DNA from: Marinicella algicola
GTDB taxonomy: Bacteria; Pseudomonadota; Gammaproteobacteria; Xanthomonadales; Marinicellaceae
Direction of reading: 5' to 3'
Length of the DNA stretch: 64,000 nucleotides
Assembly: GCF_028401385.1 (NCBI RefSeq)
Contig: NZ_JAQOMR010000001.1
Coordinates: 1,490,501-1,554,500 of the forward strand
Below are positions 13,466-58,474 of the stretch, piece after piece. A program made the translations under genes and the position numbers. Every line of letters begins with the position of its first letter. The stretch's first letter is position 1. Under the pieces are notes generated by a model. That model saw only the letters and a list, made by a program, of their open reading frames with translations. It made no database searches and was not told the origin of the DNA.

Positions 13466-13549
13466 ACCGTGACGGCAGGAACAGCGCCCTCATCAAAACC
13501 GGCACCCCTTGGCAGCTTCAGCCCTCCTGACTAACACAGTTGCTAGAAC

Positions 13550-15404: not shown

Positions 15405-15579
15405 TGAAATTTCTCCGGTGGTTGGTCTTTGGCTTGCAGATTGTTTCTATTCGGCGATGCAGGAGAAGTCATAAGACCAACCACCAAGACGCGGTCAATG
15501 GATGGAGCGCAGGGCCGCGAAGCAGGAATTGTCAGTCAGCATTACGCCGAACCTGTGCGACCTTATTTGTATCTTCGAC

Positions 15580-17085
15580 TCACTCTACGAGCTCGATCTC
15601 GCCCGGCCGCCAGGTCTTATCAATCCACGCCTGCTCCGGACCGTACGTGCGCAGCAATATCAACCAGCTCTTGCCGGGGATCGTCTGTAGCCAGTTGCCC
15701 TCTTTACCCTTGGGTGGCTCAGGCGCGAAGTAGATGTCGTAGGAGCCGTCGGCATTCTTCTGCAAGCCCTCCGTCTGGCTGCCGAGGGTGGGAAACTGCT
15801 CATCGGTCTGCAGCTGCGAGCGGGTCTGGGTGTCGTAGATGGTCACTGCCCAGAAGTCCTTGACCGGCACATTGGGCGGCAGGGTCAGGCGGTAGGTTTT
15901 GGAGCCATCCAGCGCGCGCTTTTCAGAGTCGATACTGAGAAGGCCGTAGTCGGAGCCAACGCCGGGGCGGGTGACCGCCATCGCCGGGGTTACACCGATG
16001 GCGTTGTAATGGAACAAGGTCGCGGCGTCCACATTGTAGGCGCCGTCGTAGGTAAATGTGGTGTTCTTGTCCGCATAACCCATCAGCCAGCCGCTGTCCT
16101 CGCCGTACATGTAGTTGCCCGGGTTACGGGGGTAGAAGGTGATGGCGCGGGCGGTGGCGTTGCCGATGGCGACGGCTTCGGTGAGCAGTTTCTTCATACG
16201 CGCGTCTGGCTCGAACGGCTGGTCCTTGATGATGCCGACCGAAGCGAAAAGGCCGCGGGTCACCGGATCCAGCGATTCGATGGGTTCGTACTGGACCACA
16301 GCGTTCAGCTGCTCGAAGAAGGTGAAATCATTGGCGGGAACGAAATTTGCAACCTTGCCGGATGCGTCAATAAATTCGGTCGCGGGCGGATTGTCGGCCT
16401 TGGCCAGTGGGTAGACCTTGAGGTTTTTTCGATATTCTCGACCGCCGGTTCCACACCGTTGGCGATGGAGCCGCGCAGAAACACCCAATTGCGGTTGGTG
16501 GGGGCTTCCAGCACGAAGTAGCCGTCCGGCACGGTGCCGGTGTATCCAGGCGGGAGCACAAGGTATTTGCCGCCCTTGCCTTTATCCTGCCCGGCGACAC
16601 CGAAGTTATCGATAAACTTGAACCAGGCGCTGTCGAGCATCCCGAGCATGCCCGGCGGCAATTCGATTACGGTGGGGCCGTCTGTCTTCAGATCCAGAGT
16701 GGTGAGCGCATAGAGAGTCGACGTATTACCCGTCAGTAGCAATGTTTTCGAGATCCATCATCTCTTTAAAGATCTGGATTTTGTTGGGTCTGTCGGCGCC
16801 TATCGCCTTTGGACCATCGTACAGGGCATACGCGGAGGCGGCCGGATAGCCGGCGAGAAAAGTCTGCACGCCGCGCATGCTATCCAGGTTGTCGTACAGA
16901 GTTTGCACCGTCTGCTCCGAGGGCACGCCGTCGAAGAACTCGAGGTTGCCGATGGAAGTCTCCACCTTGTCCGGCGTGGTGATCGACTCCGGAATTTCTG
17001 TGGTCATTTGGAACTTGGGAAGCTCGGCCACTGCCGGTACGGCGGCCGCGGCAATTGCAACTGCGCAGAGCATTGCAGATTTCAT
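15580..17085 (-). CDS. Secreted DUF1254/DUF1214 protein (two frameshifts)
   Basis: The start at 17085 has an AAGGAT ribosome binding site and a signal peptide (MKSAMLCAVAIAAAAVPAVA). The N-terminal DUF1254 part includes VETSIGNLEFFDGVPSEQTV and LLTGNTSTLYAL. The C-terminal DUF1214 part includes TYRLTLPPNVPVKDFWAVTI, then YDTQTRSQLQTD, and ends KTWRPGEIELVE. Frames break at about 16740 and 16430; at the latter, A7 for A6 gives ENIEKNLKVYPLAK. About 501 residues after correction. The biochemical function is not known. A divergent paralogue lies immediately upstream. Confidence 0.8.
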
Positions 17086-23929: not shown

Positions 23930-24912
23930 AACGAAGAAGTCGATCAGGAATCCAAGGACGTCGTCCGCAGCTTCTGGTCGAAAATGATGGCCCAATATAA
24001 AACTGAGGATGAATATAACCGTCAGATAATCGACGCCTTCAAGGGATCAGGGATCCCGAAATCCTCATTGTCGTATCGAAGTTGTTGACCGGCTTCGACG
24101 CGCCGAGAAACACGGTTTTGTACGTTTGCAAGTCCCTGAAGGAGCACAATCTGCTTCAGGCCATCGCGCGCGTGAACCGCCTGTACGAGGACGGGGACAC
24201 AGAAAAACAATTTGGGTTCATTGTTGATTATGAGGGCTTGCTTGGTGAACTTGACAGTGCCCTGACGACCTACAGTGCTTTCGAGGGCTATGAGGCTGCG
24301 GACCTTGTCGGGACGGTCCACGACGTCAGGGAGGAGATCCGCAAACTCCCCCAACTGCACGACCAGCTCTGGGATATCTTCAAGCCCGTCCGCAACAAGA
24401 AGGATATGGAGCAGTTCGAACAACTGCTTGGTGATGAAGCCCTGCGGCAGGATTTCTATGCACGGCTTCGGGCCTTCAGCCGATGCCTCCACATATCGTT
24501 ATCATCAGACAAGCTGCTCGATGTCTTTGACGAAGCCAAAATCGACACGTTGAAGCGTGACTGGAAGCAGTTCTCTGAACTGAGGCGCTCGGTTCAACTC
24601 CGGTATCAAGAAACCGTCGATGTCCGCGAGTTCGAACCGAAGATTCAGAAACTGCTTGATGACCACGTCGTGGCATTGCCAGCGGAAACAATCATCGAAG
24701 TGGTCAACATCAACGATCCCGATGCATTGAAGGCGGTTGTTGAAGAAACATGTGTCTCGGAGGCGTCGCGAGCGGATCGCATTGCCAGCGCCACACGCCC
24801 CGCCATCACGGAAAAGATGGAGGAGGACCCCACGTTCTACCGCGAGTTCTCGGAGCTGCTTGAGGACACGATCCGCGCCTACCGGGGACGCCGCCTTTCA
24901 GAGCGCGACTAG
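23930..24912 (+). pseudogene. hsdR: Type I restriction enzyme R subunit, 3' fragment
   Basis: The sequence reads FWSKMMAQYKTEDEYNRQII, then (after restoring one G near 24050) PEILIVVSKLLTGFDAPRNT, then ARVNRLYEDGDTEKQFGFIV and DYEGLLGELDSAL. These are helicase motifs V-VI and the helical C-terminal region of HsdR. The N-terminal nuclease domain and the first helicase lobe are missing upstream, where prophage sequence abuts. No hsdM or hsdS remains. It marks an older restriction system at this defence locus. Confidence 0.85.
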
Positions 24913-25505: not shown

Positions 25506-26433
25506 GAACCCGATTTAAAAGTTGTTGAGTGATATCAGAAGGATGTGATTCAACCACCTCTGCCAAGAACGTGGAGGATTGCATGCCCTGGACTGATATC
25601 ACCCGCCTGCAGCATAACCGCGATCGCCTTCGCTATCCAACCGATTTGACGGATCGTGAGTGGGCTGTAATTGCTCCACTGATACCGCCGGCCAAGCCCG
25701 GTGGGCGGCCACGGAAAACGAATATGAGGGAAGTGGTGAACGCGATCCTTTATATTGCGGGCAGTGGCAGTCAATGGCGGGCACTGCCGAAGGACTTCCT
25801 CCGGTCTCCACGGTGCGAGGCTATTTCTATGGCTGGCGCGATATCGGCTTTTGGCAGACCATCAACCATCTGCTTGTCTGTGCTACGCGCGAACTGGAGG
25901 GGCGTGAGGCCTCGCCCACGGCCGGTGTGATCGACAGCCAGAGTGTCAAGACCACCGAAAGTGGCGGGGTCTCGGGCTACGACGCCGGCAAGAAGATCAA
26001 GGGCCGCAAGCGCCACATTATCACCGATACGCTCGGTCTGATGCTGTTCGCGCATGTCCATGAAGCCGATATCCAGGACCGCGACGGCGCACCCGATGTC
26101 CTGAAAGCCATCCGCTACCGTTTCCCTGGTTGCGCCATGTCTTCGCAGATGGCGGCTATGCCGGGCAGAAGTTGCGAAAAGCGCTGCGCGGATGCGGCCA
26201 ATGGAACCTTGAGATCATCAAGCGTTCCGACACAGCGAAAGGCTTTGAGGTTCTGCCACGCCGATGGGTGGTCGAGCGCACCTTCGGCTGGTTCGGTCGA
26301 TGCCGTCGACTGGCCAAAGATTGGGAAAAGTCCATCGCAAGCGCCACAGCATGGGTCAACATCGCAAGCATCAGGGTGATGACCAGACGCCTCGCACGAT
26401 ATCGTTTCCCATCATGAACTTTTGAATCCGGCT
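25506..26433 (+). mobile_element. IS5-family insertion sequence
   Basis: Inverted repeats GAACCCGATTTAAAAGTT at the left and GAGCCGGATTCAAAAGTT on the opposite strand at the right bound a single transposase gene. CTAA flanks both ends (25502-25505 and 26434-26437), which fits the YTAR target of the IS427 group. The intact ends suggest a simple insertion just upstream of the Zorya operon. Confidence 0.85.
25583..26417 (+). CDS. IS5-family transposase (two frameshifts)
   Basis: The N-terminal block [22 protein letters not shown]-type start is followed by [20 protein letters not shown] (first catalytic aspartate) and [16 protein letters not shown]. Then come [11 protein letters not shown] and the C-terminal [20 protein letters not shown]. 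Missing bases near 25797 (C) and 26129 (T) split the frame; correction gives 278 residues, the family size. Confidence 0.88.
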
Positions 26434-26539
26434 CTAAAGCGAAATCCGTTGCGCATGAAAACAAAGGTATGCTTAAAAACTTAATCTTAGTATTTGGTGA
26501 TCGAGGACGGTCTGCTTTTCAGACAGGGGGATAGGAATT

Positions 26540-28011
26540 GTGCCACAAATATTGATGGAGATTGGTGAAAGTGTAAAGACGTTCATACTTTTTGCGGCGA
26601 ATGCCGTCACCAATGATTATTCGCCAGGGTTAATCAGCTCTTTCATTTTCCTTTTGATGATATTTGTGGCTGTTCGTATTTTCTCTATCTCGCACCAGCG
26701 CCAGCACGCTCTCCAAACGCTCCGCAAAAGGATCGTCGCACTAAGGAGCAAGGAAGATTTCCAACAAGACTTTGAAGCGATCTCAGATGAGATGAATACC
26801 AAGAAAGGCAAGCCGAACAAGCAGCTGGCATTTGCCTTTTCCGAGTTTGGGGAAACCCTGATCCAACCGAAACAGATGGGCGAAGGTGTTGTGCTGAATG
26901 GCATCAGACCATCTGTCTTTATCAATCTGGAGGACCTCGGCTTTTCGCTTAGCGGCTGGCGCTTCTGGCCAGGCGTGTTCGTGTCAGTCGGTCTGTTGAT
27001 GACGTTTCTTGGGCTGATCGCAGTACTAAACAACACTCAAGGATTGCTTCCGGACGGCGCGGTTGATCCGCAGCAGACCATTTATGCATTGAAGCAACTT
27101 CTGTCCCGTGCTTCGGCAAAGTTCATCATGTCGCTGACGGGGCTGTTTTGCTCGATCCTCCTTACCTTGCTGATCCGCCGACAGACACGCAACCTGAACG
27201 GAAGTGGTGAAGAACTGAATCGCGCGATTGAAGAAAAGGTTGTCTTCGTCAGTCTGGAAAGCTTGGCAACACGCCAGCTCGAAGCGATCGAGGCCCAGAG
27301 CGCCGAGATGAAGCTTCTGAATTCCGAGTTGATTGCGAAGCTCAGCCGCCCGCTTGAAAACATGGCGGACAACTCCATGAAGGCCGTCGGGACGATGGTC
27401 AACGATCTTTCCAGCGCCCTGACAGAAGGCATTGGCACCTCTCTTGCGTCGCTTGGCGAGAGCATAGACAGTTCCGCAAAGTCCATGACAGCAGTGAGTT
27501 CGGCTCTTTCCGGCGCAGCCGAGCAGTTTGACCGGAACCTCACCAATGGCATCGATAGACTGCAGACAATCGTCGAACAGCTTGGGACTGTCAGCGGTCA
27601 GCTAGCCGAGGCAGCAAACATGGTTTCCGAAACTGCCGGACCTGTCCTTGAGACAGTCAAAGAGAACAACACCGCAAGCAGGAAATCGCCGAAAGTTCCC
27701 TCGTCATGATCAACGCGGCCAAGCAGACGCTTGAATCGGAGCGAGAGACAGTTGTCAGCGCTACACAGTCCATTGATCTGGCCATCCGGAGCTTTAAGGA
27801 CCTTGCTGCTGCCTACGACGGCCAGCTCGAAAAAGCCTTCGATACACAGGCAAGCGCAGTGGAGCGCGTGATCGCCGAGCTCGAGGCTCATACCAAAGGC
27901 ATTCATGAGCGGTTCGCCGAGGCGCTTTCGACGCTGAAAGGCGTCATCGAAAACGCTAAATCTTTCGAACCGGAAAGCGCCCCACCTTCCAATGAAAATG
28001 CGGGGCAGTAA
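26540..28011 (+). CDS. zorA: Zorya anti-phage protein ZorA (one frameshift)
   Basis: MotA/ExbB-like stator subunit of the Zorya defence motor. Membrane spans are visible at LISSFIFLLMIFVAVRIF, FWPGVFVSVGLLMTFLGLIA and FIMSLTGLFCSILLTLLI. A long cytoplasmic coiled-coil tail follows (about residues 230-490), rich in SLGES- and LEAIEAQ-type heptads, which in known ZorA forms an intracellular filament. A missing A near 27680 breaks the frame; AAA gives TAKQEIAESSLVMINAA. The corrected length is 490 residues, shorter than the well-studied E. coli type I protein. The start is the GTG at 26540 with an AGGAATT site; it is the first gene of the operon. Confidence 0.88.
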
Positions 28012-28928
28012 GAGGTATGAGGGAGGAAGTCGCCGACACAATTCCGAAGACGAAGAGGAGTCAGCGTTCGTCTCCATGACGGATATGACAGTGAGCTTCC
28101 TGTTCATCGTTCTGATATTGCTGGCATTCTTTGCCACACAGGTCGCTCCGCAAGAGAAGGATCAAGTCGTACCTCGTACAATCCACGACGCCGCTCTCGA
28201 CCAACTCGCAGAACGTCAGAGGGAGATTGTTTTGCTCAAGAACGAAGTCGAGCGTCTTCGAAGACTCGTGCCGCAATCCACTGACACAAATCCCATTGAA
28301 ACGTACAACACGAATGTCGCCGCCAGCCGGGGAAATTGCTTCGCGAAATCAAGAGCAAGATCGAAAGCCAGGATCTTAACATCGAAGTTACCGTTAGCCG
28401 CGACATGGACGCCCTACAATTCAAGGGCAATGGGCTTTTGCGGTGAGCAGTTCAGAACCTTCTTCGGTTGGGCGAGAACAGATGGTCGAAGTGGCGAAAA
28501 TACTGATCGATGAATTGCGTTGTTACACACTGGGATTGGGTTCTGCCGTGGAAGGTAGCTGCAATCCTGACCTTGCCCTAATCGACTCGCTTCAGATTGA
28601 GGGACATACAGATAGCCAGGGCACGGATATCTTCAATATGGATTTGAGCACGAAACGCGGCGACCAAGTCTTTGAAATCCTGGTTCAAGCTCAACCCGAT
28701 TTACTGGCATTCGATAACCTTCATGCTCAACCAATCCTGTCCGTAGCAGGTTATGGAAAAGGCCGCCCCATCGCTGATAACGAAACTGCGGAGGGACGCG
28801 ACAACAACCGCAGGATCGACCTTCGTTTCATCATGTTTTCTCCCGTCAGTGAAGAAATGATCCCGCATGACGTGGCCGACATTGGAAGAATTCAAGATAT
28901 CTTCGATCGTGGCAGGGCTTCCCAATGA
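27992..28928 (+). CDS. zorB: Zorya anti-phage protein ZorB (two frameshifts)
   Basis: MotB-like partner of ZorA. After a short charged cytoplasmic N-terminus, one membrane span carries the ion-binding aspartate: SMTDMTVSFLFIVLILLAFF. A coiled segment follows (REIVLLKNEVERLRRL). The C-terminal OmpA-like peptidoglycan-binding domain has LQIEGHTDSQGTDIFNMDLS and GRDNNRRIDLRF. Breaks near 28327 (CC for CCC) and 28437 (T4 for T5) are repaired to ASPGKLLREIKSK and GNGLFAVSSSEP. About 312 residues. The start overlaps the zorA end by 20 bases, so the two are coupled. Confidence 0.88.
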
Positions 28929-30263
28929 CACTTCGAGATCGAATTGTCCTGCCTGTCGAATATCGCTTGCGGCCTTTTGGTTCAGATGCGCTGGGGGTGA
29001 TTTGCAAGCAGATCAGCGATGCCTATCCAGGAATTTCGAGCGCGCGGCCGGACGAGACTTTCAGAACTTTTCGCGCTTGCCGAAAAGGCCGTCGCAAACT
29101 GGGACTGGAGCACGCTCAAGCAGGGCGACTTTGCCGTGGTCATTGCAGCGGCCATGACCGGAAAGGTCCAATGCAGCAAAGAGCTCCTTCGCTTCATCGA
29201 CGCGGAGCTTGAAGCCACCACCCGACCGGTGCTGCTTGGAGCTCTCTGCGAAGCCTACATGGAAAACTGGGAGGTCGGCGCAGACAAAACCCGACGCCTT
29301 GCCAAGATGATCATTGGCAAGAGCGCGTCTTTGCCTGCGCGATGGCAGGTGCTTTTCCGCCGATACCCACAACTGCTGGATACTGAACGCGGAGCAGAGG
29401 CGCTTGGCCACATCCTTGCTGTCGACAATAGCCCCTTTGAGACACTGCGCAGCGCGGGTCTTCCAGCTCCCCACGGGCCCGGGATGATGACCGAAGTACA
29501 TGAGGCGTTCATTCACGCCCTGTCGCCTGCAGAAACAAAAGCGACCGTGGACCGCATACTGGGTTGGATTGCACCAGCAGGTCAGCCAAAACTCATCGAT
29601 GTTAGGGCCATTTCTGCGGTGAGGGCAATCCTATCACCCTGGCGCGACAGAAACTGCCCGGAAGCCTTGCGTCTGCATTGCGTGAAAGAACTGAACAGGC
29701 TGTTCGGCGATCCGAGACATCGGGACGCTGACGACAGTCATATCGAAGAAGCGCGGATCTGGCTGGATCTCGGGCACGAATATTTGCGCGTCATGCTTAA
29801 ATGGCTGGCAGGACAAAGCATGGAAGCCATTTTCGAAATTGTTTCGAGGGCAGAATCTATACGGGACACAAACGAGCAATGGATCAAACGCAAACGCTTC
29901 TGGATGGACCTCTATAAAAGGGGTCGCATCGATGAAGCGTGGCTTGCGCTGGGAAAAGATTCTGAGACCGCAGCGGCCAATCTTTACCGCCGAACAGGCG
30001 ATCCTGCTTATCGCAATTTTGGGCGACAGCGTTCAAGATCAGATACGAGTATTCTCATGATGAGGATCGGCGAAAAGATCGTTGTGGAGGGCTCTCACAG
30101 CTTCCGCGTCCATGTTTTCGATAAACCGGTGCAGGAAAGACCTGAGCTTTATGCAACAGACTACGATCTCGGAAAGATCGTTCTGCCATTAGGCGATGCC
30201 CGCACGCGCGTACATGACACGGGTGGCAACTGGATGAGTTGGGTCATGGAGCGCATCAGATGA
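28925..30263 (+). CDS. zorC: Zorya type I protein ZorC, EH-signature domain (one frame break)
   Basis: Third gene of type I Zorya; it acts in the cytoplasm with ZorD on invading DNA. The protein is largely helical. The C-terminal EH-signature region reads MMRIGEKIVVEGSHSFRVHV, with the glutamate and histidine in VEGSH at about residue 390. The 5' frame starts at 28925 (MTLRDRIVLPVEYRLRPFGS), overlapping the zorB stop as ATGA. It shifts to the main frame near 29050 (RGRTRLSELFALAEKAVANW). About 445 residues. Assignment rests on the domain and the operon position. Confidence 0.85.
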
Positions 30264-33200
30264 GCCTTTCCTTTTCTCCTCACTACGACGCCAACGGCGC
30301 CGTGCTGGACCTGACCAGCGAAGAAAAAGGCATTTTTGGCCGGTTGCGCAAACAACGAATGCCCGACCTGAGGCACATTACGAAGGACGAGCGCGATATT
30401 GCTCTGGCCATTGCCAGCTTGCGCTTTCTCGACCCTGAAAACGGACACCACACGCTCGACGCAAGCAAAATAACGCTCGATCACTGGCTCATTTCGCGAC
30501 TTGATGATCACACGGCGACAGTCCTGGGCCTGCCGCCACGCGTCAGCAATCTCGTATTCCGGGCAGAAACGAAAGGCGAGATGGGACGAGCAAATTTCCG
30601 GTTCAACTGGTGGTGGGAGCAACATGGTCAAAGTAAACCCCAGAACCGTCTCGGGGCGATCATCGGCGCCGGCCGGAAGCAAAGGATCCCTGCGCCGATC
30701 TACGACGCCATTCAGCTTTCCGAAGCCTTTAATGCAAACGCGCCGTTACCCGCTCACTGGAAGGCACTTGCCGATTTCTGCAAGTTGCTTGGAGCTGAAT
30801 CGATTACGGATCTCAGTTCTCCCGAGCAATTCCTGAAAGACATCTCCATTGTCAGCTGCGATCGCGTCGGTCTTGATCTCGACGATGATGATCCTTCGCA
30901 GTTCCGCCCTCTGCCCTTCAATGACGAGTTTGATTCCGAAGAATTCTCACACGGTTCCGCCGCCCTCAAGGATGAAGAACTTATCCAGTTTCAGCAGCAG
31001 GTTGAAAAACGTGGTGGCCAGCCAGCCTTCAGCATTGGAAAAAACGATTCCTGATCCTGGATCGGACGGCCATGACAATCACACGCGTGATCAGCGAACA
31101 TGCCGCCAAGGATGAGGTATCGCGACGCCATTTCATCGAAAATGCCGAGCGTATAGTGTTTGAAGCCGTCGCCGAACAACTTCGAAGTGATGGCAGCCTC
31201 AAAGCGCTTCAAAGCATCGAGGCGCAGGAAGAGGCCTTCGAGAACACATTTTCCCGCGGGTGGGCGGAGACCCGCGAGTGGTCGGCGCGGGTTATCGAAA
31301 TCCGCGCTTGGCAAAAGCCCGTTCTGGAGACAATTCAGGCATCGGGAAGGAACTGGCTCCCGGCGGATATCGATCCATCGGTCGGCGAGACGTTGGGCCG
31401 AATCCCGGATCATGACGTCGAGGGAATGCTGAAGGCGGTTCGCTCAGCCCTAGAAAATGCTCTGCCCGCAGTTGTTCACGAAACTGCAGGCGAGTTCCCG
31501 GCGACCGAATTGATAGCTGAGGCGCTGGAAAGGCGCCTTGAAATCATGAAGGAGAAGCATCTGGCCGGCGGCAATGACGCAGAACCGGTGCTTCCGATAT
31601 CTCACGACAATTTTTTCGAGTTGACTTTCCGCGAGCAACCGGTCGAGCGACAATCTGCACGGGACAACGCATTACCCGACGGCGTTTTGAGACCGCTGCA
31701 ATATCATCAACGTCAAGCGCTCAACTGGCAAATTGAATGCTGGCGTAAAGGTCTCCCGGGCATTCTCAATGCGGATGAGCAAGGGCTGGGAAAAACGCTA
31801 CAAACACTCGCCTTTCTGACCTGGCTGACCGAAGTGATGCGTTTCGATCCCAAATGGGCGGCTCCCATCCTGATTGTCGCGCCGACGTCTCTGCTGCGAA
31901 ATTGGGAAGATGAGATAGGCAAACATCTGAAGCCTGATATCTGGGGTAAGCCAGTTCGCCTCTATGGAGCTCATTTGGTACCGTTCAAGACCAACGGCGT
32001 CAGTGGTCAGGACATTCAGGATGGGGAGGCACGTCTTGATTTCGGTGCACTCATGGATGCGAAAGGCCCCAAGCTGGCGGTGACCACTTATCAGACGCTT
32101 GCAAATTACGCGGTGAGCTTCGCCGAAACGCGTTTTGCGGCGATCGTTTATGATGAAATCCAGAACCTGAAGAACCCGGCAACACTGCGCTCAACCGCTG
32201 CCCGTGCGACCCATGCGGATTTCAAGATCGGGCTGACCGGAACGCCAGTCGAGAACAAGACACAGGACCTCTGGGCGATCATGGATCAACTTGTCCCAGG
32301 CGCGCTTGGCTCACTTGTCGATTTCAAGGACCTCTATGATACGCCTACGGCCGAGCGGATTCGCGGCCTAAACGCTGCCGTCTTTACGCGACATGGAGAT
32401 ATTCCCCGCTAGGACAACGGCGGCTGAAATCTGAGGCTGCGAGCAGCCTGCCTCCGAAGGTGCGTATCTATCATCCACGCATCATGCCCCTGTACAGGCG
32501 TTGCGCTATGACGAAGCCCGCGCCAAACGTTTGCAGATGTTTGCTTTGCTTCATCACATTCGTCGTACGTCGCTGCACCCGGGCCTGATTGACAGCGAAC
32601 TGACAGACAATTTTACCGAAGCCTCAGCTCGACTGACCGCTGCGATCGATATCCTCCGATGGATAAAGGCGAGAGGCGAGCGAGCACTGATCTTCGTTGA
32701 GTACCGCGATGTCCAAAAGTGGCTGGCAGAACTCATCCGCCTCGAATTCGACCTTGAGAGGGTTGATATCATCAACGGAGAAACGTCCGTCGATCAGCGC
32801 AAGCAGTTTACTGATCGTTTCAACCGTCATCTTGAAAACGACGAAGGATTTGACGTGCTGGTGCTTGGTCCGAGAGCCGCCGGCACTGGGCTGACTCTGA
32901 CCGCAGCCAATCACGTCATCCACCTGACACGATGGTGGAACCCTGCTGTGGAAGAGCAATGCAACGATCGTACGCATCGTATTGGACAGACTAAGCCGGT
33001 GACCGTTCACATCCCGCTTGCCATCCACCCGAAACTTGGCCGCGGCTCTTTCGATTGTCTGTTGCAGGACCTGATGCGCAGCAAGCGCAACCTCGCCGAC
33101 AGCGTGCTCTGGCCCCAGGAGAGCAATGAAAGTGAACTGCATCTATTGCATGACAGGATCGTCGAAGCTCCTGAGAAGCCGCAGGAAGGGGCCAGTTCGA

Positions 33201-33456
33201 AGCGCTGGAAGGTCGCGTTGATCTGGTTTTCGAAATGATGGGCAATGAAACCATGCGTGTTGCGTCGAAGGCTGGCGGCAGCAGCGTGGTGATTGCGCGT
33301 GCGAAGAAGCCTAGCGACATCGAAAACCTGTTCTCCGCGCACGACGCTGCGCTCATTGTCATGGACAGATGCGGAGACAACCCGGCCAATCAGAGCCTTC
33401 CAACTGTGTGTCTTCCGGACCGCTCCTTGTGGCCGGACTATTTATTGCCCGACTGA
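30260..33456 (+). CDS. zorD: Zorya type I protein ZorD, SNF2-family helicase/nuclease (four frameshifts)
   Basis: Effector of type I Zorya, an SNF2-type ATPase. An N-terminal domain (about residues 1-265) precedes a linker. Helicase motifs follow: Walker A NADEQGLGKTLQTLAFL at about residue 505, box II YDEIQNLKNP at about 630 (DEIQ rather than DEAH), LTGTPVENKTQDLW, and the C-terminal GTGLTLTAANHVIHLTRWWN with NDRTHRIGQ. Four missing bases break it, near 31040 (A6 for A7), 32405 (C4 for C5), 32490 (C4 for C5) and 33190 (G4 for G5). Each correction joins conserved sequence. The corrected length is 1066 residues, as for ZorD. Its start overlaps the zorC stop (ATGA). Confidence 0.9.
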
Positions 33457-33524
33457 TGCGGGTTTCGCGACATCATCCTGCGGAGCAAGGCCTGAGCCGC
33501 GCCGGTCCATGAGGGGAGAACACG

Positions 33525-34445
33525 ATGCCGAAGGTCTTTTTCACATATGTCTGGGGCCCGCCCGGCGAGCCTTGCTGGCCGCTGACCTTCAGCTCGAAGG
33601 GCGGACGCACCCAGGCCAGAAATGTCCTGTCCGACGGCGACTATGTCTTCACGATCGGAACCCGGCAGCAAGAAACCGATGAACAATATCGCGGTCGTGT
33701 GCTTGGCCTCTATCAGGTCACGACACAAGAAGTGAACACCCGGGACTATATCGACCCGTTAAGCGCCGGCGAGGCGATGCGGCGCACGGCGGAGGAGTTT
33801 GCCTTCGCCCTCCATCCGGCCTTGGTCTGGGAGATCACCGACACAGACAATGATTTCGGCAACCTTGTTGGATCGTTACCCCGCGCGCTTTACTATCGCG
33901 CCCAGACCGGCGTCGCAGAGCTTTCGCCGGAGGCCGCTGAAAGACTGCTGGTGCTGACGCGCCGCCCGGTTCGGCTTGCCGAACCGACAACGCTTCTGGG
34001 ACAAAGGCGGATCCAGCAAAGCAGGCTGGCGCCCAAACATGAGGGCGAATTCAGCGGTCGGTTCGGCGAACATGAGACGTGGTTTGTCTACGTATTCGCT
34101 CTTCATGACCGGCAAGGCCGAAGCCTCGCCTTCAAAATCGGTTATGCTAGTGATCCCGAAGCGCGCCGGAAAGCCTACCAGTTTCCGATGGCTGAGGAAG
34201 TTACCGGTCTTCGCTGGAAATTCCTACACAAAGAAGCGTGGGCGACCGAGGACGACGCGCGAAGCGTGGAACAAGCATTGCTGAAACGATTTTCGAAGAA
34301 CCGGCTCGTGAGCAATGGCGAGATTATCCATGGCCTACCGCCTGCAGCCCGACAGTCTGCAGGGCAGGACCGACCTTCCGGAACAGCCGACGCTAAACTG
34401 AGAGCACCGCCGGGCGAAACCGCACTCGGACTGCTGATGCGTTAG
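33525..34445 (+). CDS. GIY-YIG-like (T5orf172/MUG113-type) protein next to Zorya
   Basis: 306 residues, intact. It starts 68 bases after zorD on the same strand with a GAGGGGAG ribosome binding site, so it is probably in the same transcription unit. The C-terminal half (about residues 185-285) resembles a GIY-YIG nuclease fold: WFVYVFALHD, then AFKIGYASDPEARRKAYQF, and a later glutamate in SVEQALLKRFSKNRLV. The N-terminal half (MPKVFFTYVWGPPGEPCWPL, then DGDYVFTIGTRQQET) is beta-rich and might be a PUA/EVE-like reader of modified bases; that part is inference. It is not a known core Zorya gene. It could be an independent defence gene. Confidence 0.6.
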   Translation: MPKVFFTYVWGPPGEPCWPLTFSSKGGRTQARNVLSDGDYVFTIGTRQQETDEQYRGRVLGLYQVTTQEVNTRDYIDPLSAGEAMRRTAEEFAFALHPALVWEITDTDNDFGNLVGSLPRALYYRAQTGVAELSPEAAERLLVLTRRPVRLAEPTTLLGQRRIQQSRLAPKHEGEFSGRFGEHETWFVYVFALHDRQGRSLAFKIGYASDPEARRKAYQFPMAEEVTGLRWKFLHKEAWATEDDARSVEQALLKRFSKNRLVSNGEIIHGLPPAARQSAGQDRPSGTADAKLRAPPGETALGLLMR

Positions 34446-34559: not shown

Positions 34560-34877
34560 TCAAATGGAGCACAGCCCATGTTCGAGAAAAACAGCGGCGG
34601 CCGTCTGCCACGCAAACATAAACAACCCTACACGCAGTAGTCTGGCCTTTTCAGCCCGGGTCAGGTGCGTGCACATCTGAAGATCTCTAACGATCTTCAT
34701 GATTTCGCCAGTGCGGCGATCAAGCTCTCGCAATCTCGCGCCGCCGCCAGCCAGAAGGCAGAGACGGACGTATTTCGCCTTTTGCTGCTCGCGGCATTGC
34801 AGCATATGCCACCGGACTGCCGACGCCTCCGATCGCGTAAGGCGGGTCTGGAAAATTTCCGTCCTTTGAGAACTCAT
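34560..34877 (-). CDS. Small hypothetical protein, possibly MobC-like
   Basis: About 105 residues from the ATG at 34877, which has a GGAGGAGT ribosome binding site and overlaps the stop of the AlpA-like gene (ATGA). The segment FQTRLTRSEASAVRWHMLQC followed by REQQKAKYVRLCLLAG resembles the ribbon-helix-helix start of mobilisation accessory proteins, but the match is weak. Its pairing with an AlpA-type regulator suggests it belongs to an integrated element. Confidence 0.45.
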   Translation of the reverse strand: MSSQRTEIFQTRLTRSEASAVRWHMLQCREQQKAKYVRLCLLAGGGARLRELDRRTGEIMKIVRDLQMCTHLTRAEKARLLRVGLFMFAWQTAAAVFLEHGLCSI

Positions 34878-35089
34878 CGCCACTCCTCCTCCGCCAGAGG
34901 AAGCGAGTCGATGAAATCGAGAACGTCGGCCAATCGCCATCGGACGGTGTGAGGCCCCAGACGGACGGGTCTCGGGAAATCGAGGTCCTCGCGCAGCCTT
35001 CTGTCGATGGAGCTCTCGCTCCATGACAGCAGCTCCATGAGTTCGAACTTGGAAATTAGTCGGTGTTCTAGCGGGATTTTCGTTGCCAT
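34874..35089 (-). CDS. AlpA-family excisionase/regulator
   Basis: 71 residues from the ATG at 35089 (GGAGG ribosome binding site). The MerR-like helix-turn-helix is visible as LISKFELMELLSWSESSIDR, then DFPRPVRLGPHTVRWRLADV and LDFIDSLPLAEEEW. Such proteins regulate or excise integrated elements. It faces the Zorya operon, so it may mark the edge of the mobile unit that carries the defence genes; no integrase gene is present nearby. Confidence 0.75.
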   Translation of the reverse strand: MATKIPLEHRLISKFELMELLSWSESSIDRRLREDLDFPRPVRLGPHTVRWRLADVLDFIDSLPLAEEEWR

Positions 35090-35849
35090 CTTGGCCTCCG
35101 GAGAGTGTTGAGATGGCAAGACAATTTAGACAGATTTTCGGAATGCGATATAGGGGAGTGTCTGGAAATGTGGAAAGTGGGCGGTTCCGCAGACTTTCGT
35201 GCGCAATTGTCGCTTAATTATGTGGATAAACGAACTTTAAGTATTCCAATTTATAAAAGTGCCCGAAGAATTCTTATGATCTACCAATCACGACGATGTC
35301 AGGCGCTGTCTAGCCCATACGTCGTGCCGATCGGGCAAAAGTGCGGATGAAATCGGCATTGTGCGTGTTCCCGCAGTCAAGAGATTTCGGCAAGTCTAGA
35401 GTTTTGCGTCTTCAGCCACGGAATCGAGCGTAGCCCTTTCGGTTTTCCATGTGTCGGCCCTTTAGTCGGCGCGGCATCTGGGAACGACAGCTTAGCGCCT
35501 GCATTCTGGACATTCGCAGGAATTCGGCGCTATCCATAAAGCTGCCGTTCGTTGCGGGGCGGGCGAAAGTCTATTGAGGGCGGGAAGCGGCTATCCGATC
35601 TGAAACCGTAGAATGGTTGTCTGTGGGATAAGCAACCATTTACAACATCTGGCCAGTTCTGGTTCAGTCTCCAGAAGCCTACATCTCAGCTCGGCATAAT
35701 GATGTGCACGCTTCGGCCAATGAAAATCGCAACTTTTGGGGAACAGGCTCATATTGCGCGGGTATGATCCTCTGGCTGGGGTTGTAAGGCGTCTTTCGCG
35801 TTTTGTTACCCAGGTCCAATCCTAACTGCTTCGAAGCCGCCTTCCGTTC
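35090..35849. other. Non-coding stretch between AlpA-like gene and IS256 remnant
   Basis: 760 bases with no supportable gene. Open frames here are short and without recognisable domains. The AlpA promoter must lie in the first part. Confidence 0.45.
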
Positions 35850-38485: not shown

Positions 38486-39569
38486 GATGGTTCCTTCCTC
38501 AAGGCATGCGGCAAAACTTCGATTGCTGTCACATCATTGGGGTTTTCGATTGCCTGCCGCCAGACCAGCGTCATTTGATGTTTTTCCGGGTCCGGATCGG
38601 CGATATCGCAATGGACGGTATCAAGGCGCATGATCAGCGTGCGGTCATCGGCAGTGTCGGCATAGCGCACGGCCGCTTTCAGCCCGCCCTCGGGCAGCGT
38701 GAAGCGATAGGGGCGGGGTCATGGCGCACACCGTGGACGGTGATTTCTTCCATGCCGGTGAGAAACGGCGCAAACTGCAATCGTTGCGGCGCTGCGTTCC
38801 AATAGGCAAAGTCATAATCCGCCGGCATGCGCGGATGGCGTTCGCGCTGCCAGGCATCGTCAAAGGTGCCGGCGAGCGCAAGACGCGGCTGCCAGGATTT
38901 CGTCAACGGCCCGACCCCGCAGATGGTCATCTCCGCGCCCGGCACCCAGGCGGCGAATTCGCCGGCGAGGCCGATCTGCGGGGCGGGCAGGGCCTCGCTG
39001 GCCTCCAGCAGATAATCGCTGACCATGCCGCGCCCGATCGGGTTGAACACATGCGCGTCTTCGCTTTCGTCATCGATCCTCACCGTGCCGCCATAGGCGC
39101 GTTCATAGACGAGCGGCACTTGCGTAACCGGCATTGCGTCAGAAAGCTGCCAGCGCTTGCCGCCTTTTGCCGTCTCCGGCTCCATCAGCCGCTCGCCGAA
39201 CACATGAAAGCCGTGGCTGCCGATGACCTCGGGCGCCGCGCCATCCTCCGTGGGCCGGGCGATATCCACCCGCACCGGCCAACTCGCAAGCTGCTTTTCC
39301 TCCGGCGAGCGGGCAATGGCGGAAAAGGTCAGATCGGTTTTCGGCTTGAACGGCGCGATCTCGCTTTCGGCTTTCAGCGACGAGACATTCGCCTCACCGT
39401 AAAACGCATCCGAAAGCGCCATCTCCGGCTGCGCCTTCGGCAGCACCGCGCGTCTGCCCTCGTCTATTTCGAACACTGCCCGCACCACCAGCACCCCCAT
39501 CTCACTGCCGTCCAGATACCAGTGGCGGAAGAACAGGCACGGAAAGGGAAGCGAGATTTGGGGGATCAT
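38482..39569 (-). CDS. DUF2169 type VI effector adaptor (one frameshift)
   Basis: The DUF2169 family acts as a chaperone/adaptor loading PAAR-linked effectors onto VgrG. The main part runs from LPFPCLFFRHWYLDGSEMGV to FLTGMEEITVHGVRHDP. The frame is restored by one C near 38717 to PRPYRFTLPEGGLKAAVRYA and ends ALRKEPS. About 362 residues. The start overlaps the lipase stop (TAATG) and the stop overlaps the DUF4150 start. Confidence 0.85.
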
Positions 39570-40993
39570 TATTCTGAATCCAGATATTGTTCGAAGGTCG
39601 CGATCACATAATCCATGCCGTGATAGGTCGCTGAAACGCCGAAGAGGTCCAGAAGATAGGAAAATTCAACGGCGAACATCGCAAGTGCAGGGCCTACCGT
39701 CGGAAGAACGACCTGCGCGTCAAGGAAACCTCTGTAATCCTTGACGACGGATCTCGTTCTGTCCTGGGCCATCTTGCCGAGAAGATCGCCGAACGTGAAC
39801 TTGTCATAGACCCAGGGCTGATAGGATGTGTTCGGGCCGGGCGGCGGCACTTTATCTTCGAATTGGCGTTTACCGCGTCTTCCACCCAGCCGGGGATGCG
39901 GGCGGAAAGCAGGTTGAGCGCCTGCACGAACGAAGCGGAGTTGTTGAGAATCCCGTCCAGCGCAAGGGTCAGGCGGAAGTTATTGGCAAGGGCGGCGGGA
40001 AAGACGGTCTGTTCGGTGATCGGCCAGACCACGGGCAGTTCCTCCCCGTGCGGGCGGCTGCCAGGTGGGGATGATTTGCTGGCCGATACCGCCGGTCGGC
40101 AAGACGACGGGCCGCGTTTGCGGTGGATCGCTGGAGGGACCGGGACTGATGCCCTTTCTCGGGACGAAATTGCCCGCTGGCGCGGGAAACCCGTCGATAT
40201 TCGCCTCCGCCTTGGCCCATCGCAGAATGGCGCCGAGAAACGGCAATTGTCCGGCGCGGGTCTCGATCGTCGTCAGGATTTCATCGCGCACGCCGAATGC
40301 ATTGATCGTCGCCTCGCCGAGCGAGGCAGGCTTGACCGTTTCGGTATTGACGCCAGAAGGATTGAAGGTGTGGCATAGCGTGGTGATGTCGGTATGGTAA
40401 AAGTGTTCGACTACCGTAGCTGTTGCACTGGCCAATCCACCGCCCAATGAATGACCTGCGATATTCAGACGACGATCTTGGCCGGGTTTGATCTTACTCT
40501 TGGCTATTTTTCCTCCGAACCTTTCAGCTTTGTTGTACTGCTCGCTCGGCTTCCCCAACCCCTGTTCCACATTGTTGGCCCAGTCACCATTCGGCCCGCC
40601 AAGAAAGATCAGTTGCAGGCTTGCCTGATAGGGAACGCCCAAAAGTCTAAATGCACAGGAACTGTTCAGAAGCGTGATCGGAATGAAGTTGTCGGCGATC
40701 AGCTCCTTGCGGCTCTTGCCCTTCAGCCGCTTGTCCATGGCGAACATGATCTCGCCGCCGGGATATTGCTTTTCCAGCACATCCTGAAGATCGATCACCG
40801 GCGTCTCGCCCGCGCCTGGCGCGATGTTGAGGATGACGCAGAAGGCGAAATCGCGCATGTCGTCAAAATCGGTTCCGCGAAACACCAGTGTCGGCGGACA
40901 CGTGTCTGTCTTGCTGCTCGGGTCGTAGCCCTTCACCTTGTAGAGCTTTGCGACAAGCCCGGTAATGTCCTGATCGTTCAAGCCATCCCCCAT
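39569..40993 (-). CDS. Putative type VI lipase effector, class 3-like (two frame breaks)
   Basis: Alpha/beta hydrolase with the nucleophile elbow NIAGHSLGGGLASATATVVE (GHSLGG, about residues 160-165) and the earlier LVFRGTDFDD expected of class 3 lipases. A C-terminal extension of about 170 residues has no recognised domain. Breaks near 40045 (an extra G, giving PPAREELPVVWPITEQTV) and 39853 (a missing A) are net neutral; about 474 residues. It sits between a probable immunity gene and the DUF2169 adaptor, the usual place of the VgrG cargo. It probably attacks membrane phospholipids of rival cells. No signal peptide. Confidence 0.75.
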
Positions 40994-41252
40994 TCTTCCC
41001 AGTTCTTCTCCGCCTCAGCGATCTTGTCCGGATAAAGTGTCGAAAAGCCACCGGTCGGAGGCGGGTTCTTATAAACCAGCTTGCACAGATAGGCCGCCTG
41101 CCGCCGACAGGTTTTCGGGTTGGCGTGCCCGTGGATCACCGTGGTGTTGGCCGTATCCGGGGGATGGGCGGAATGTCGATCTTAGGCGGGATGATATGGT
41201 CGGTGTCCCGCATCGGCGGAATCTTGACAACATGTTCCTGATCATTTGGCAT
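40978..41252 (-). CDS. Small protein of the VgrG operon (one frameshift)
   Basis: 91 residues, starting MPNDQEHVVKIPPMRDTDHI. After restoring one C near 41157 it continues PIPPDTANTTVIHGHANPKT and CRRQAAYLCKLVYKNPPPTG, ending KNWEEWGMA. Its start overlaps the ankyrin stop and its stop overlaps the lipase start, so it is coupled to both. I do not recognise the family; it may be a short PAAR-like or chaperone protein serving the lipase. Confidence 0.6.
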
Positions 41253-42171
41253 TTTCCACCTCCTTCCAGGGGATCGGTCCGCCAAAGATGTCTTGCGTGT
41301 TCTGGTCGGGAGGGTAGTCCGGATTGCGTTTCAGAACGCGTAGCGCGATCTGCTGTATCTCCTCGCTCATTCTGTCACGACGCTGGGTATAAGCTGCAAG
41401 TGAACTCATGAAATTCTGTAGCTTCTTCAAAGGAATTTTTAGAAAATATCCGTCATTGATGAGTTCATTGATTATGTTGAGCGAGGATGAAGTCCCTGCC
41501 ATTGCGAGAACATCCATGGATGAGTCTCCATAACTGTCTTCATCCCAAGGGTCCGCGCCAGCCCTGACCAACTCAATAAAGCCAGCATAATTCTTATTGC
41601 TAGCCGTTGCTTCGGCCACCGTGTCATTGAATCCGCCTCCCAGCCTATGATTGGGATCGCCGCCGTGTTTTAGATATAGCTGAATCAGCGACAGCATGAA
41701 CGAATGCCCATCTTTTTGATCTTCCGGGCTTCCGGGCATGGTGACATAATAGGCGAAGTTGCGTGCAGATCCCTGCGATGGCCGGTCAACAATATAAGGG
41801 TCGGCTCCAGCCGCCAGCAGTGTGTCGATCGCTTTAAGATTATGTGCCTGAAGCGCCAGAAACAGCATGGTGATCTCATCGCCATAGCGTTTGTCGACGC
41901 CGTCCGGGAGCGCCTTCACCTCGGCCTCGGAAATCGCATCGCCGCGCTCGATCTTCTGCGCCAGCCGATAAGGCTGTTCGCCATAGGGCAGGATCAACCT
42001 GCTGGAAAGCGGCGTATCCGGAGAACTCTCGATCATGTCCTGCTCCGTTCGATAGGTTTCGTATTTGCCATAGCCCCACCAGACGAGAGGCGTGACGATA
42101 ACGGCAGAGGCCACGAAAACGACCGCGTAGAATCGCCGGATAGAGGCCTGTCTCTTGTCGGGTGTGGTCAC
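41242..42171 (-). CDS. Membrane-anchored ankyrin-repeat-like protein, probable immunity protein
   Basis: 309 residues, intact. One N-terminal membrane span (FYAVVFVASAVIVTPLVWWG) leaves the rest in the periplasm. Ankyrin-like repeats include MLFLALQAHNLKAIDTLLAA with GADPYIV, then LIQLYLKHGGDPNHRL and FIELVRAGADPWDEDS. Periplasmic ankyrin-type proteins commonly protect against type VI phospholipase effectors encoded next to them. It lies between VgrG and the lipase operon part. Confidence 0.7.
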   Translation of the reverse strand: MTTPDKRQASIRRFYAVVFVASAVIVTPLVWWGYGKYETYRTEQDMIESSPDTPLSSRLILPYGEQPYRLAQKIERGDAISEAEVKALPDGVDKRYGDEITMLFLALQAHNLKAIDTLLAAGADPYIVDRPSQGSARNFAYYVTMPGSPEDQKDGHSFMLSLIQLYLKHGGDPNHRLGGGFNDTVAEATASNKNYAGFIELVRAGADPWDEDSYGDSSMDVLAMAGTSSSLNIINELINDGYFLKIPLKKLQNFMSSLAAYTQRRDRMSEEIQQIALRVLKRNPDYPPDQNTQDIFGGPIPWKEVENAK

Positions 42172-42181
42172 TGACGGCTCC

Positions 42182-44248
42182 TCAATTCACCTTCACGACA
42201 TCGGACAGAAGCTTGATCAGTTGACCGACGTTGTGGCTGAGTTGTTTGCCATTGATCTGGATCGAGCCGTCGGAGTTGAGCACGATCACACTGTCGCCGC
42301 TCTTGAGGAGAATCCGCTTGCCGGCGGTGATCACCAGTTCCTCGCCGACATCGAGATAATAGCTCTTGAGGACGTTGACGGTCTTGGTGTTCTGGACCAG
42401 TTGAGAGTCATTATTGCCGATGCTCTCGTTCCGGTTCTTCTCGATGCTGACCTGCATCGACCCTTCGCCGGCCCCGGCTCCCTTGTCGCCAAGGCCGTAG
42501 GGGACGCCCGGAAGGCCGTCGATCATCCTGTCAGCGCCGGTGGGCGTGAACATGCCCTTCTGCGCCGGGCCGACATAAAGCGCCATATCGCCGCCGATCA
42601 CCTCGGTATGATTGTTCTCGACCTCGATGCCCTTGTTGTGGCCGACGGACTGGACCCAGTTGTTGTTGATGCGTTCGGAGTGGTTGTTGTTGGTCTTTTC
42701 GTTGCGGTCTTTCTGGGCGTGGACATAGACTTCCTGCCGGTCGTTCTCGTCCTCAAATCTGAGTTCGTTATAGCCATTGCCCTTGTGGGTCTGGGATCGC
42801 CAGACGGTTCTGGTCTTGTTGTCGGGAAGCTTGTAGGGCGGCAGGTTGAGGGCGTTGTAGGAGCGTCCGGTGATGATCGGCTGGTCGGGGTCGCCGCCCA
42901 TGTAACTGACGAGCACTTCCTGTTTGACCCGTGGCAGGATCACCTCGCCGAAAGTGCCGCCCGCCGAACTCGACGTCACCCGCGTCCAGACCGAGGAGTG
43001 CTCATTGTCTTTCGAGCGTCTGTCCCACGGATAGGAAAGTTTCACGCGGCCCCAGTCATCGCAGTAGATTTCCTCACCCTCCGGGCCGCTGACGGTTGCG
43101 ATCTCCGGACCGTCGGCTTTCGGCTTCGGCTGTTTCGGCGGGGCGTAATTGAGGTCCGCCGGCATCGCCAGGAAGCGATTGGCATAGGTGGTGGCGCCCG
43201 CTCCGGCTTCTTCCTTCAGCGCCTGCGGCTGTTCGCCCACATGGGTGACGGTGAGAAGATGCCAGAAGACGTTGCAGTCCTCATTCGGATGCTCGGTGAG
43301 CCGGACCTTGCGGCCCGGCGTCAGCGCCGGCGCATTGGTGCGGCCTTCGCCGGTGGTGGCCTCGACGCGCACCGCCTCGATCTGTGTTTTGGTAAACGGC
43401 TTGCCGGCATTGTCGTATTTGTAGCCGCCCGGATAGTTGTAGAGATCGTAATCGCCTTTGGTGCCGTTATCGGCCTGGCGGTCGGCGCGATGCTCTTGGC
43501 TGTACCCCGGATTCGTGAAGAGACGCTCGCGCTGGGTGAAGCTCGTCGCCCGCAGGCGCTCGCGGAAGGTGAAGCTGCGGCAGAAGACGCCCTTCGCCAC
43601 GCCGCCGGGATTGGCATTGTATTCGAGTTCCGGCATCTCCTTCAGCTTCGGCACGATCATCGGTGTATCGATGAAAGTCACCTGGTTCTGGCCGTTCTCG
43701 CCGGATGTGAAGAAGAACCAGATGCCTTCCTCGGCGGCGATGCGCCGGACGAAATCGAGATGGGTCTCGTTGTACTGGACGCAATATTCCCGCGCCACAT
43801 GGGTGCCTTCGAGCACGAAGCGCATATCCTCGACGCGGCTTTCCTTCAGCACCTCGGCGATGATCTCGGGCACGCTCTTCTGCTGGAAGATGCGGCTGTC
43901 GGAGCCATGGGCGAGCCGGCCGAGCGCAGGCATGAGGACGACCGTGTAGAAGGTGCGGTGAAGCCCCTCGTCGCGGCGGGCCATGTCGGCGATGATGCCG
44001 GAGAAATGCCGGATGCCGGCATATTTGTGATGGATGGTCAGCGTCGCCGGTGTGTCGAGCAGGGCGTTGATATCGATTTTGGGATCGTCGGAAACGAGTT
44101 CGATCACCACCTCGGAAAGTTCGAACAGCTTTTCTTGCGCCGTAAACCCGTGAACAAGAAGTCCGGCATCCTTCAACGCCGGGGCCTCGAAGGTGAAGGC
44201 GATGTCCTGATCCTGAAAGAGGACCGGCATGTCGATGATCGCGTTCAT
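42182..44248 (-). CDS. vgrG: Type VI secretion spike protein VgrG (TssI)
   Basis: 688 residues, intact. The N-terminal gp27-like part (FTFEAPALKDAGLLVHGFTA, then ESRVEDMRFVLEG and ETHLDFVRRIAAEEGIWFFF) precedes the gp5-like OB fold. That fold has EEIYCDDWGRVKLSYPWDRR, SSVWTRVTSSSAGGTFGEVI and LVSYMGGDPDQPIITGRSYN. A beta-helix needle with N-rich repeats (NEKTNNNHSERINNNWVQSV) follows. There is no C-terminal effector extension. It is near the head of the effector operon; the core T6SS genes are not in the window. Confidence 0.95.
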   Translation of the reverse strand: MNAIIDMPVLFQDQDIAFTFEAPALKDAGLLVHGFTAQEKLFELSEVVIELVSDDPKIDINALLDTPATLTIHHKYAGIRHFSGIIADMARRDEGLHRTFYTVVLMPALGRLAHGSDSRIFQQKSVPEIIAEVLKESRVEDMRFVLEGTHVAREYCVQYNETHLDFVRRIAAEEGIWFFFTSGENGQNQVTFIDTPMIVPKLKEMPELEYNANPGGVAKGVFCRSFTFRERLRATSFTQRERLFTNPGYSQEHRADRQADNGTKGDYDLYNYPGGYKYDNAGKPFTKTQIEAVRVEATTGEGRTNAPALTPGRKVRLTEHPNEDCNVFWHLLTVTHVGEQPQALKEEAGAGATTYANRFLAMPADLNYAPPKQPKPKADGPEIATVSGPEGEEIYCDDWGRVKLSYPWDRRSKDNEHSSVWTRVTSSSAGGTFGEVILPRVKQEVLVSYMGGDPDQPIITGRSYNALNLPPYKLPDNKTRTVWRSQTHKGNGYNELRFEDENDRQEVYVHAQKDRNEKTNNNHSERINNNWVQSVGHNKGIEVENNHTEVIGGDMALYVGPAQKGMFTPTGADRMIDGLPGVPYGLGDKGAGAGEGSMQVSIEKNRNESIGNNDSQLVQNTKTVNVLKSYYLDVGEELVITAGKRILLKSGDSVIVLNSDGSIQINGKQLSHNVGQLIKLLSDVVKVN

Positions 44249-56767: not shown

Positions 56768-56930
56768 TGCAGGTTTGACTTGATGCGCCTTGGCTGTGGC
56801 GTTAAGACCGGTCTGGTTTCAAGCACCCGGGGCCGGATCTTAACCGGAACCCGGCTTGCCCCGACATCGAAGATAGCCTGCTGAGCGGCCCGCCGCCAGC
56901 GCCGCGACAGCCATGCACACGGACAGTAGA

Positions 56931-58474
56931 ATGAGCGATAAAGACAAATACTACATTACAACGCCGATCTTCTATCCTAATGGTGCACCGCATATCGGTC
57001 ATGCCTACACCATGATTGCCAGCGATGCCCTTGCGCGCTTTCGCAGGCTGGACGGCGTGGATGTGCGTTTCCTGTCCGGCACCGACGAGCATGGCCAGAA
57101 GATGCAGCAAACCGCCGAAAAGGAAGGCATCGCGCCGATCGAACTGGCGGATCGCAATTCGGCAGTGTTTCGCGGGCTGCTCGCTGAGCTGAATTGTTCC
57201 AATGACGATTTCATCCGCACCACGGAAGAGCGCCATCGCAAGGCTGTACAGGCGCTCTGGAAGCGCATGCAGGACAATGGCGATATTTATCTCGGGAAAT
57301 ATGGCGGCTGGTATTCGGTGCGCCAGGAAGCCTATTTTGACGAGAGCGAAACGACTGTCGGTGAGGATGGCCTGCGCCGTGAGCCGCTCGGTTCTCCGGT
57401 CGAATGGGTCGAGGAGGAAAGCTATTTCTTCAAGCTGTCTGCCTATGGCGACAAGCTGCTCGAATATTTTGACCAGCATCCCGATTTCATCGGCCCGGCC
57501 GAACGGCGCAATGAGGTCGTCTCATTCGTGAAATCCGGCCTCAAGGATCTTTCGATCTCGCGCACCACCTTCGACTGGGGTGTGCCGGTTCCAGATAACC
57601 CGGATCATGTGATGTATGTCTGGGTCGACGCGCTGACCAACTATATCACGGCGCTCGGTTTCCCCGATGAGAGCGATCCGCTGTGGTCATACTGGCCGGG
57701 CGTACACATCATCGGCAAGGATATCATCCGTTTCCATGCGGTTTACTGGCCGGCATTCCTGATGTCCGCCGGTGTGCCGCTGCCGGAACGGGTCTATGCG
57801 CACGGGTTTCTCCTCAACAAGGGGAGAAGATGTCGAAATCCGTGGGCAATGTCATCGACCCCTTCAATCTTGTCGACCATTTCGGCCTCGACCAGATCCG
57901 CTATTTCCTGCTGCGTGAGGTCTCGTTCGGTCAGGATGGCAGCTATAGCGATGAAGCGATTGGCATCCGCATCAATTCCGATCTTGCCAACGGTATCGGC
58001 AATCTCGCTAGTCGGTCGCTGTCGATGATCGCCAAGAACTGCGACGGCCAGATCCCTGAATGCGGGCCGTTGGCGGCCGAAGACGAGACGATGCTGGCCG
58101 CTGCTGACGCGGCGATCGATACTGTCCGCGACGCCATGGAGAAGTTCGCGATCCACCGCGCCATGGCGGCCATTATCGGGCTTGTCTCGGAGGCCGACCG
58201 TTATTTTGCAGGGCAGGAGCCCTGGGCTTTAAGGAAAACCGATCCGGAGCGCATGGCGACCGTGCTTTATGTGACGGCCGAGGTGGTGCGCCAAGTGGCA
58301 ATCCTGTTGCAGCCGGCTATGCCGACCTCTGCGGGAAAACTGCTCGATCTGATTTCGATACCGGAAACAGAACGCGACTTTAAGCATTTGGGTAAGGCTG
58401 GCCGGCTGAAGGCTGGCACACCGCAGGAAAAGCCGTCCCCAGTCTTTCCGCGCTATGTCGCGCCTGAGGAATAG
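56931..58474 (+). CDS. metG: Methionyl-tRNA synthetase (one frameshift)
   Basis: Class I synthetase. The start at 56931 gives [20 protein letters not shown] and HIGHAYT (HIGH motif). The KMSKS motif appears after restoring one G near 57825 (G4 for G5): [20 protein letters not shown]. The anticodon-binding domain follows, ending FPRYVAPEE. 514 residues. No C-terminal dimerisation domain, as usual in the group. Confidence 0.95.

Follow-up and report, generated by a model that had tools for sequence, protein, structure and literature searches.

Several type I Zorya systems are already described. The structures from Shewanella ANA-3 (8VVN) and 8QYD, which we take to be the type I Zorya structure of Escherichia coli, have a ZorA motor with a long tail. 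On the Zymomonas plasmid pZA1001 the four genes stand in the order zorA-zorB-zorC-zorD and ZorA has 675 residues, and in Hoeflea poritis E7-10 the same genes lie in open frames with 4-base overlaps, encoding a short ZorA of 494 residues with ZorB of 347, ZorC of 437 and ZorD of 1067. A 5:2 ZorA:ZorB complex and protection from phage have been reported for other Zorya systems (PMC11890865). Here we describe a further example of this known system type, in a 64,000-nucleotide stretch of Marinicella algicola (assembly GCF_028401385.1, contig NZ_JAQOMR010000001.1, positions 1,490,501 to 1,554,500; hereafter the window). The gene order and the ZorA motor fold are those of the described systems, but ZorA is shorter than in Shewanella, 8QYD or Zymomonas, and it is only 35% identical to the short ZorA of Hoeflea. 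All four genes are broken between reading frames in the assembly. We give a probability of about 0.92 to the reading that the four genes make up a complete type I Zorya operon, one that probably works, in a genome (taken here to be alphaproteobacterial) whose assembly drops single homopolymer bases.

Identity of the operon

The genes zorA-zorB-zorC-zorD are encoded on the forward strand as a succession of frame pieces spanning 26540-33456 (Table 1). PADLOC and Pfam profiles were run on unmended open reading frames (ORFs), and even so all four type I PADLOC profiles matched. The two zorA pieces cover positions 3-377 and 386-483 of the 487 in the ZorA1 profile, the two zorB pieces 4-112 and 140-282 of the 293 in ZorB1, one zorC piece 49-437 of the 437 in ZorC1, and three zorD pieces 3-271, 284-717 and 752-982 of the 1012 in ZorD1. 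Pfam recognised the OmpA domain of ZorB, the EH_Signature domain of ZorC (above cut-off) and, on separate pieces of ZorD, the SNF2 and Helicase_C domains.

Table 1. Features of the window, with the evidence for each
Feature	Position	Strand	Evidence
zorA piece 1, motor domain and proximal tail	26540..27709	+	PDLC00595 1.2e-119; 98% identity to L001
zorA piece 2, tail tip	27706..28011	+	PDLC00595 4.7e-35
zorB piece 1	27992..28513	+	PDLC00612 8.9e-27; junction against L001; ORF end out of frame
zorB later piece, OmpA-like peptidoglycan-binding domain	28443..28928	+	PDLC00612 4.5e-52; PF00691 4.5e-10
zorC piece 1, about 50 residues, beginning in ATGA overlap with zorB	28925..29089	+	tblastn of L001 ZorC
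zorC piece 2	29019..30263	+	PDLC00619 2.2e-106; PF15611 2.9e-45
zorD N-terminal piece	30260..31054	+	PDLC00629 1.2e-46 (ORF from 30239); alignment
zorD SNF2 ATPase piece	31072..32412	+	PDLC00629 1.2e-141; PF00176 2.2e-36
zorD short piece, third frame	32406..32489	+	tblastn of L001 ZorD residues 724-751
zorD helicase C piece	32501..33238	+	PDLC00629 8.4e-112; PF00271 8.5e-17
zorD C-terminal piece	33235..33456	+	tblastn of L001 ZorD residues 986-1073
Stretch common to L001	26427..33481	+	6.5-kb core 0.34% substitutions; ends 15% and 8%
IS4/IS5-type transposase, likewise spread over two or more frames, immediately upstream	25529..26417	+	PF13340 and PF01609 on three ORFs
metG (methionine-tRNA ligase), two frames, sign of assembly error within the window	56913..58474	+	NF008900 and TIGR00398 on both pieces, each under cut-off

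The operon thus has the parts by which type I is recognised: a MotA/ExbB/TolQ-like motor with a cytoplasmic helical tail (ZorA), a MotB-like protein with a transmembrane aspartate (Asp) and an OmpA-like domain (ZorB), an EH-signature protein (ZorC) and an SNF2-type helicase (ZorD), in A-B-C-D order on a single strand. The uninterrupted frames expected of the four genes are broken in the window assembly and open in a near-identical copy, L001, described below. With that copy and the four profiles, the complete type I Zorya of the initial annotation, with its gene order, is borne out. The Asp of an SMTD motif in ZorB is conserved in the window, L001, Hoeflea and Zymomonas, and we infer that it is the ion-binding residue. 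The ZorD of L001 finds its best structural match in 8qy7 (2.1e-65), presumably E. coli ZorD.

The ZorA pieces have no Pfam match, as might be expected if the genes encoded some other MotAB/TolQR-like motor beside an unrelated helicase. However, a structural search with ZorA places type I ZorA on top, ahead of TolQ and ExbB, and the ZorB1, ZorC1 (with EH_Signature) and ZorD1 profiles follow in operon order, so that such a motor is extremely improbable. Type II Zorya, which has ZorE and lacks ZorC and ZorD, does not fit the ZorC1 and ZorD1 matches; the type II effector ZorE was absent from the PADLOC matches listed for the ten ORFs scanned (for one ORF, 25 of 33 matches).

Comparison with an intact relative

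When a single genome from each species was scanned, two relatives came up, the Hoeflea operon and L001, from strain USBA-857, which is deposited as Martelella mediterranea and flagged UNVERIFIED. The L001 operon has the gene order, the four proteins and the short ZorA of the window and is 98.7% identical to it in nucleotides over the common stretch, the match ending on both sides. Unlike the window, it has open frames. Its ZorA has 490 residues when read from the matching GTG, or 503 when read from an ATG farther upstream; ZorB has 304 (from the ATG at L001:11479) and ZorC 445. ZorD has 1066 residues if it starts at the ATG that overlaps zorC, and 1073 if it starts at a TTG before that. Three pieces in the window, the first of zorC and the short and C-terminal ones of zorD, were detected only by comparison with L001; the C-terminal one matched no PADLOC or Pfam profile.

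Across the coding span, the window differs from L001 by nine one-base length changes, eight losses and one gain, in line with the eight or more frameshifts counted initially. One lies in zorA, one at the zorA/zorB junction (at the zorB start), two in zorB, one in zorC and four in zorD. Every loss falls in a run of identical bases, 2-5 long in L001, and five fall in 5-base runs. Three additional gaps occur upstream of zorA.

The intact copy also agrees with most of the gene dimensions suggested initially. The lengths of ZorA (490), ZorC (about 445) and ZorD (1066) equal its open frames, and the 4-base zorB/zorC and zorC/zorD overlaps hold. The proposed 20-base zorA/zorB overlap and the 312-residue ZorB are not seen in L001, where zorB begins 5 bases past the zorA stop. 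Both figures are probably artefacts, because one base loss sits just past the zorB start. The true start of zorB in the window is probably the ATG after the zorA stop, as in L001, and its product probably has 304 residues. That annotation would see broken genes was correctly foreseen, since the protein collection carries the window ZorA only as a 384-residue fragment (P0001).

Origin of the frame breaks

Breaks of this kind are not confined to the operon. Four of six essential genes, namely rpoB, rpoC, valS (with internal stops) and metG, are split between frames in the same assembly, and ileS and alaS are unbroken. These genes are not a blind sample and the split proportion is not a rate: rpoB and ileS were chosen first and rpoC and alaS then, but valS and metG were chosen after a hint of damage, valS once its pieces appeared in the ileS search and metG once split ORFs were noticed in the window.

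Frame changes were counted with a frame-switch model trained on the long ORFs of each genome itself. An earlier, stricter detector failed to flag any known Zorya break as a break and was set aside. Changes of frame away from gene boundaries numbered 186 in 464 kb (4.0 per 10 kb), whereas two controls had 3 (in 200 kb) and 11 (in 220 kb); at a stricter setting the counts were 179 versus 3 and 9. Most of the breaks that the model detects within Zorya are assigned by it to gene boundaries, and for this reason all same-strand frame changes are also given: 8.68 per 10 kb here, versus 4.08 for the sister genome G041 and rates of 3.60 and 2.95 for the others. In a partly hand-counted comparison, the operon (7 frame changes in 6,975 bases) and the right flank (6 in about 10,400) do not differ clearly (p 0.40). 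Raw ORF tallies include antisense shadow ORFs. Long homopolymers are depleted as well. In the 464 kb sampled, G/C runs of at least 6 occur at 0.06 per 10 kb (0.51 in G041, 0.46 in G027) and A/T runs of at least 7 at 0.02 per 10 kb (0.72 and 0.14, respectively), and runs of 3-5 bases agree closely with G041.

It is therefore almost certain, as judged from sequence, that the frame breaks in the window are assembly errors. With essential genes split likewise and long homopolymers depleted, the initial proposal that sequencing insertions or deletions (indels) hide the operon is upheld. The pattern fits a long-read assembly without accurate polishing, although the platform itself is something we infer. 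Assembly errors that fragment genes are the subject of PMC12007338 and PMC8011154.

Several observations pull the other way. The Zorya slice holds 9 frame changes in 6.96 kb, or 12.9 per 10 kb against a genome mean of 8.7; this is within the spread, nine or more being found in 16 of 80 overlapping Zorya-sized slices (20 stretches of the same genome), but it would also fit a degree of genuine decay. A run of just two bases holds one of the losses, one difference is a gain, two of the six essential genes are whole, and a truncated HsdR lies close by, so degraded genes do occur here. The raised density in Zorya could be read to mean that the breaks are real and that the locus is a recently gained, decaying pseudo-operon, and the insertion element and the HsdR remnant adjoining it would suit such a history. 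We consider this very improbable. Essential genes are broken in the same manner, all eight losses are in identical-base runs, long homopolymers are depleted across the genome sample, there are zero nonsense substitutions, and nine frame-breaking indels beside 22 core substitutions were judged indel-rich. Still less credible is that programmed frameshifting or other recoding bypasses the breaks. Apart from the breaks themselves nothing speaks for it, near-identical L001 has plain open frames, and the break sites are many, housekeeping genes included.

The short ZorA tail

By analogy with type I systems studied elsewhere, an ion-driven motor in the inner membrane would be built from five copies of ZorA and two of ZorB. 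When a phage disturbs the envelope, ZorB would grip the peptidoglycan and the helical ZorA tail would carry the signal to the cytoplasm, where ZorC and the SNF2 helicase ZorD would be recruited to the incoming DNA and would break it down. Complex formation, sensing and DNA degradation are taken here from homology and the literature; the present analysis contributes gene identity and order, conserved motifs, the intact copy, and the genome-wide frame breaks and homopolymer shortening.

The tail helices of the window ZorA are predicted at about residues 239-475, in a low-confidence part of the model. If continuous at 1.5 angstrom per residue, the tail would measure roughly 355 angstrom. For Shewanella ZorA, PMC11890865 gives a tail of 461 residues (236-696), which at the same rise would come to roughly 690 angstrom, so that the window tail would be about half as long.

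The initial annotation was right that the tail is short, but this is a trait of a whole lineage that PADLOC already models with its 487-position ZorA1 profile. We aligned L001 ZorA with 116 homologues from a list of the best 120 of 592, a choice biased towards the query's relatives; four entries were left out, namely the piece from the window itself and three proteins below 430 residues. In this best-hit set, 85 of the 117 proteins have fewer than 530 residues and 32 have more than 580. In mid-tail the long proteins have additional blocks of about 160, 20 and 18 columns; both the motor region and the tip of the tail can be aligned between short and long forms, the coiled-coil alignment being uncertain in detail. 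ZorA is thus short, at 490 residues, because mid-tail sequence is absent, with the proximal part and the tip retained. A tree of the motor part from 77 thinned rows (67 short, 10 long) requires two changes between short and long, whichever way they ran. The members of the short-tail lineage that carry a name in the best-hit list, a minority of its rows, are alphaproteobacteria. When 369 genomes of the class were drawn evenly, ZorA matches, not all of them from Zorya operons, came from 10. Outside the window genome there were 14 such matches, 11 of them open frames of 563-781 residues and the others of 224 (at a contig edge), 457 and 1482.

A shortened tail has also been engineered. The 'tail middle deletion' ZorA delta 359-592 (8QYK), presumably E. 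coli ZorA, likewise lacks mid-tail sequence and has a chain of 495 residues, next to 490 here. It is a laboratory construct, however, whereas the natural short ZorA has its own conserved tail tip. One may speculate, at about even odds, that type I Zorya motors have two natural tail lengths, with the short lineage working with a tail about half as long as usual that lacks the middle section and keeps the tip, and that type I defence does not demand one tail length, this being set together with ZorC and ZorD. Each Zorya family has been described in print as well conserved in the sizes of its components; if the speculation is right, that description would not be true in general.

Horizontal transfer and possible recombination

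The core shared with L001 (26601-33100) has 22 substitutions, or 0.34%. In the right flank, at window positions 53635-64000, identity to the L001 genome is 82-83%, falling to 74% beside a tRNA gene. Since the core is so little diverged next to the 17-26% of the flank, it was recently shared via horizontal transfer, direct or through a third genome. Over 557 residues, RpoB of the window genome shares 96% identity with its L001 counterpart and 85% with that of Hoeflea. The ends of the shared stretch are more diverged than the core, at 15% over the left 174 bases (26427-26600) and 8% over the right 381 (33101-33481). This suggests recombination between two related operons in which the core was swapped; stronger selection at the ends is the alternative.

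Synteny with the sister genome G041 begins at a tRNA-Ser gene (53635-53724), whereas window positions 1-16000 gave no syntenic block. The 41 genomes searched included no other species of the window's genus. The last 16 bases of the tRNA-Ser 3' end recur exactly at 10749-10764 (E 0.003). It is possible that this is the attachment repeat of a 43-kb island holding Zorya. The window ORFs that were scanned, a part of the total, include no phage-type integrase. No plasmid gave a close DNA match to the operon; the ZorA protein matched 3 of 72,556 plasmid records, each with less than 60% identity, while 50,697 phage records gave no match.

Neighbouring genes

To the left of the operon lies a piece of the type I restriction gene HsdR (24082-24912). 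Directly after zorD the window and L001 part: L001 has a 926-residue HsdR-like gene immediately past zorD, and the window has a GIY-YIG-type ORF (T5orf172/MUG113, 33525-34445; T5orf172 1.2e-05). A role for this ORF as a Zorya accessory was considered and rejected: on the Zymomonas plasmid a different GIY-YIG gene lies ahead of zorA, but by tblastn the two match neither each other nor anything in L001, the Hoeflea locus or ten additional loci, some of them short of a full Zorya operon. Further along, on the reverse strand, are an AlpA-like prophage regulator (34874-35119) and a region at 38679-44248 with a DUF2169 gene (38679-39569) and a VgrG-like phage or type VI spike gene (42182-44248). A search for small-subunit (16S) rRNA returned no match in this 4.67-Mb genome, which is rated 100% complete; masking or the search's first look may explain this.

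Implications

The operon is an example of a complete defence system lost to annotation, almost certainly by homopolymer errors. Such errors can drop a whole defence system from annotation, so that defence systems may be undercounted where long-read genomes have been left unpolished. For the Zorya family itself, the short-tailed ZorA lineage would offer a natural comparison for the role of the tail and the importance of its length.
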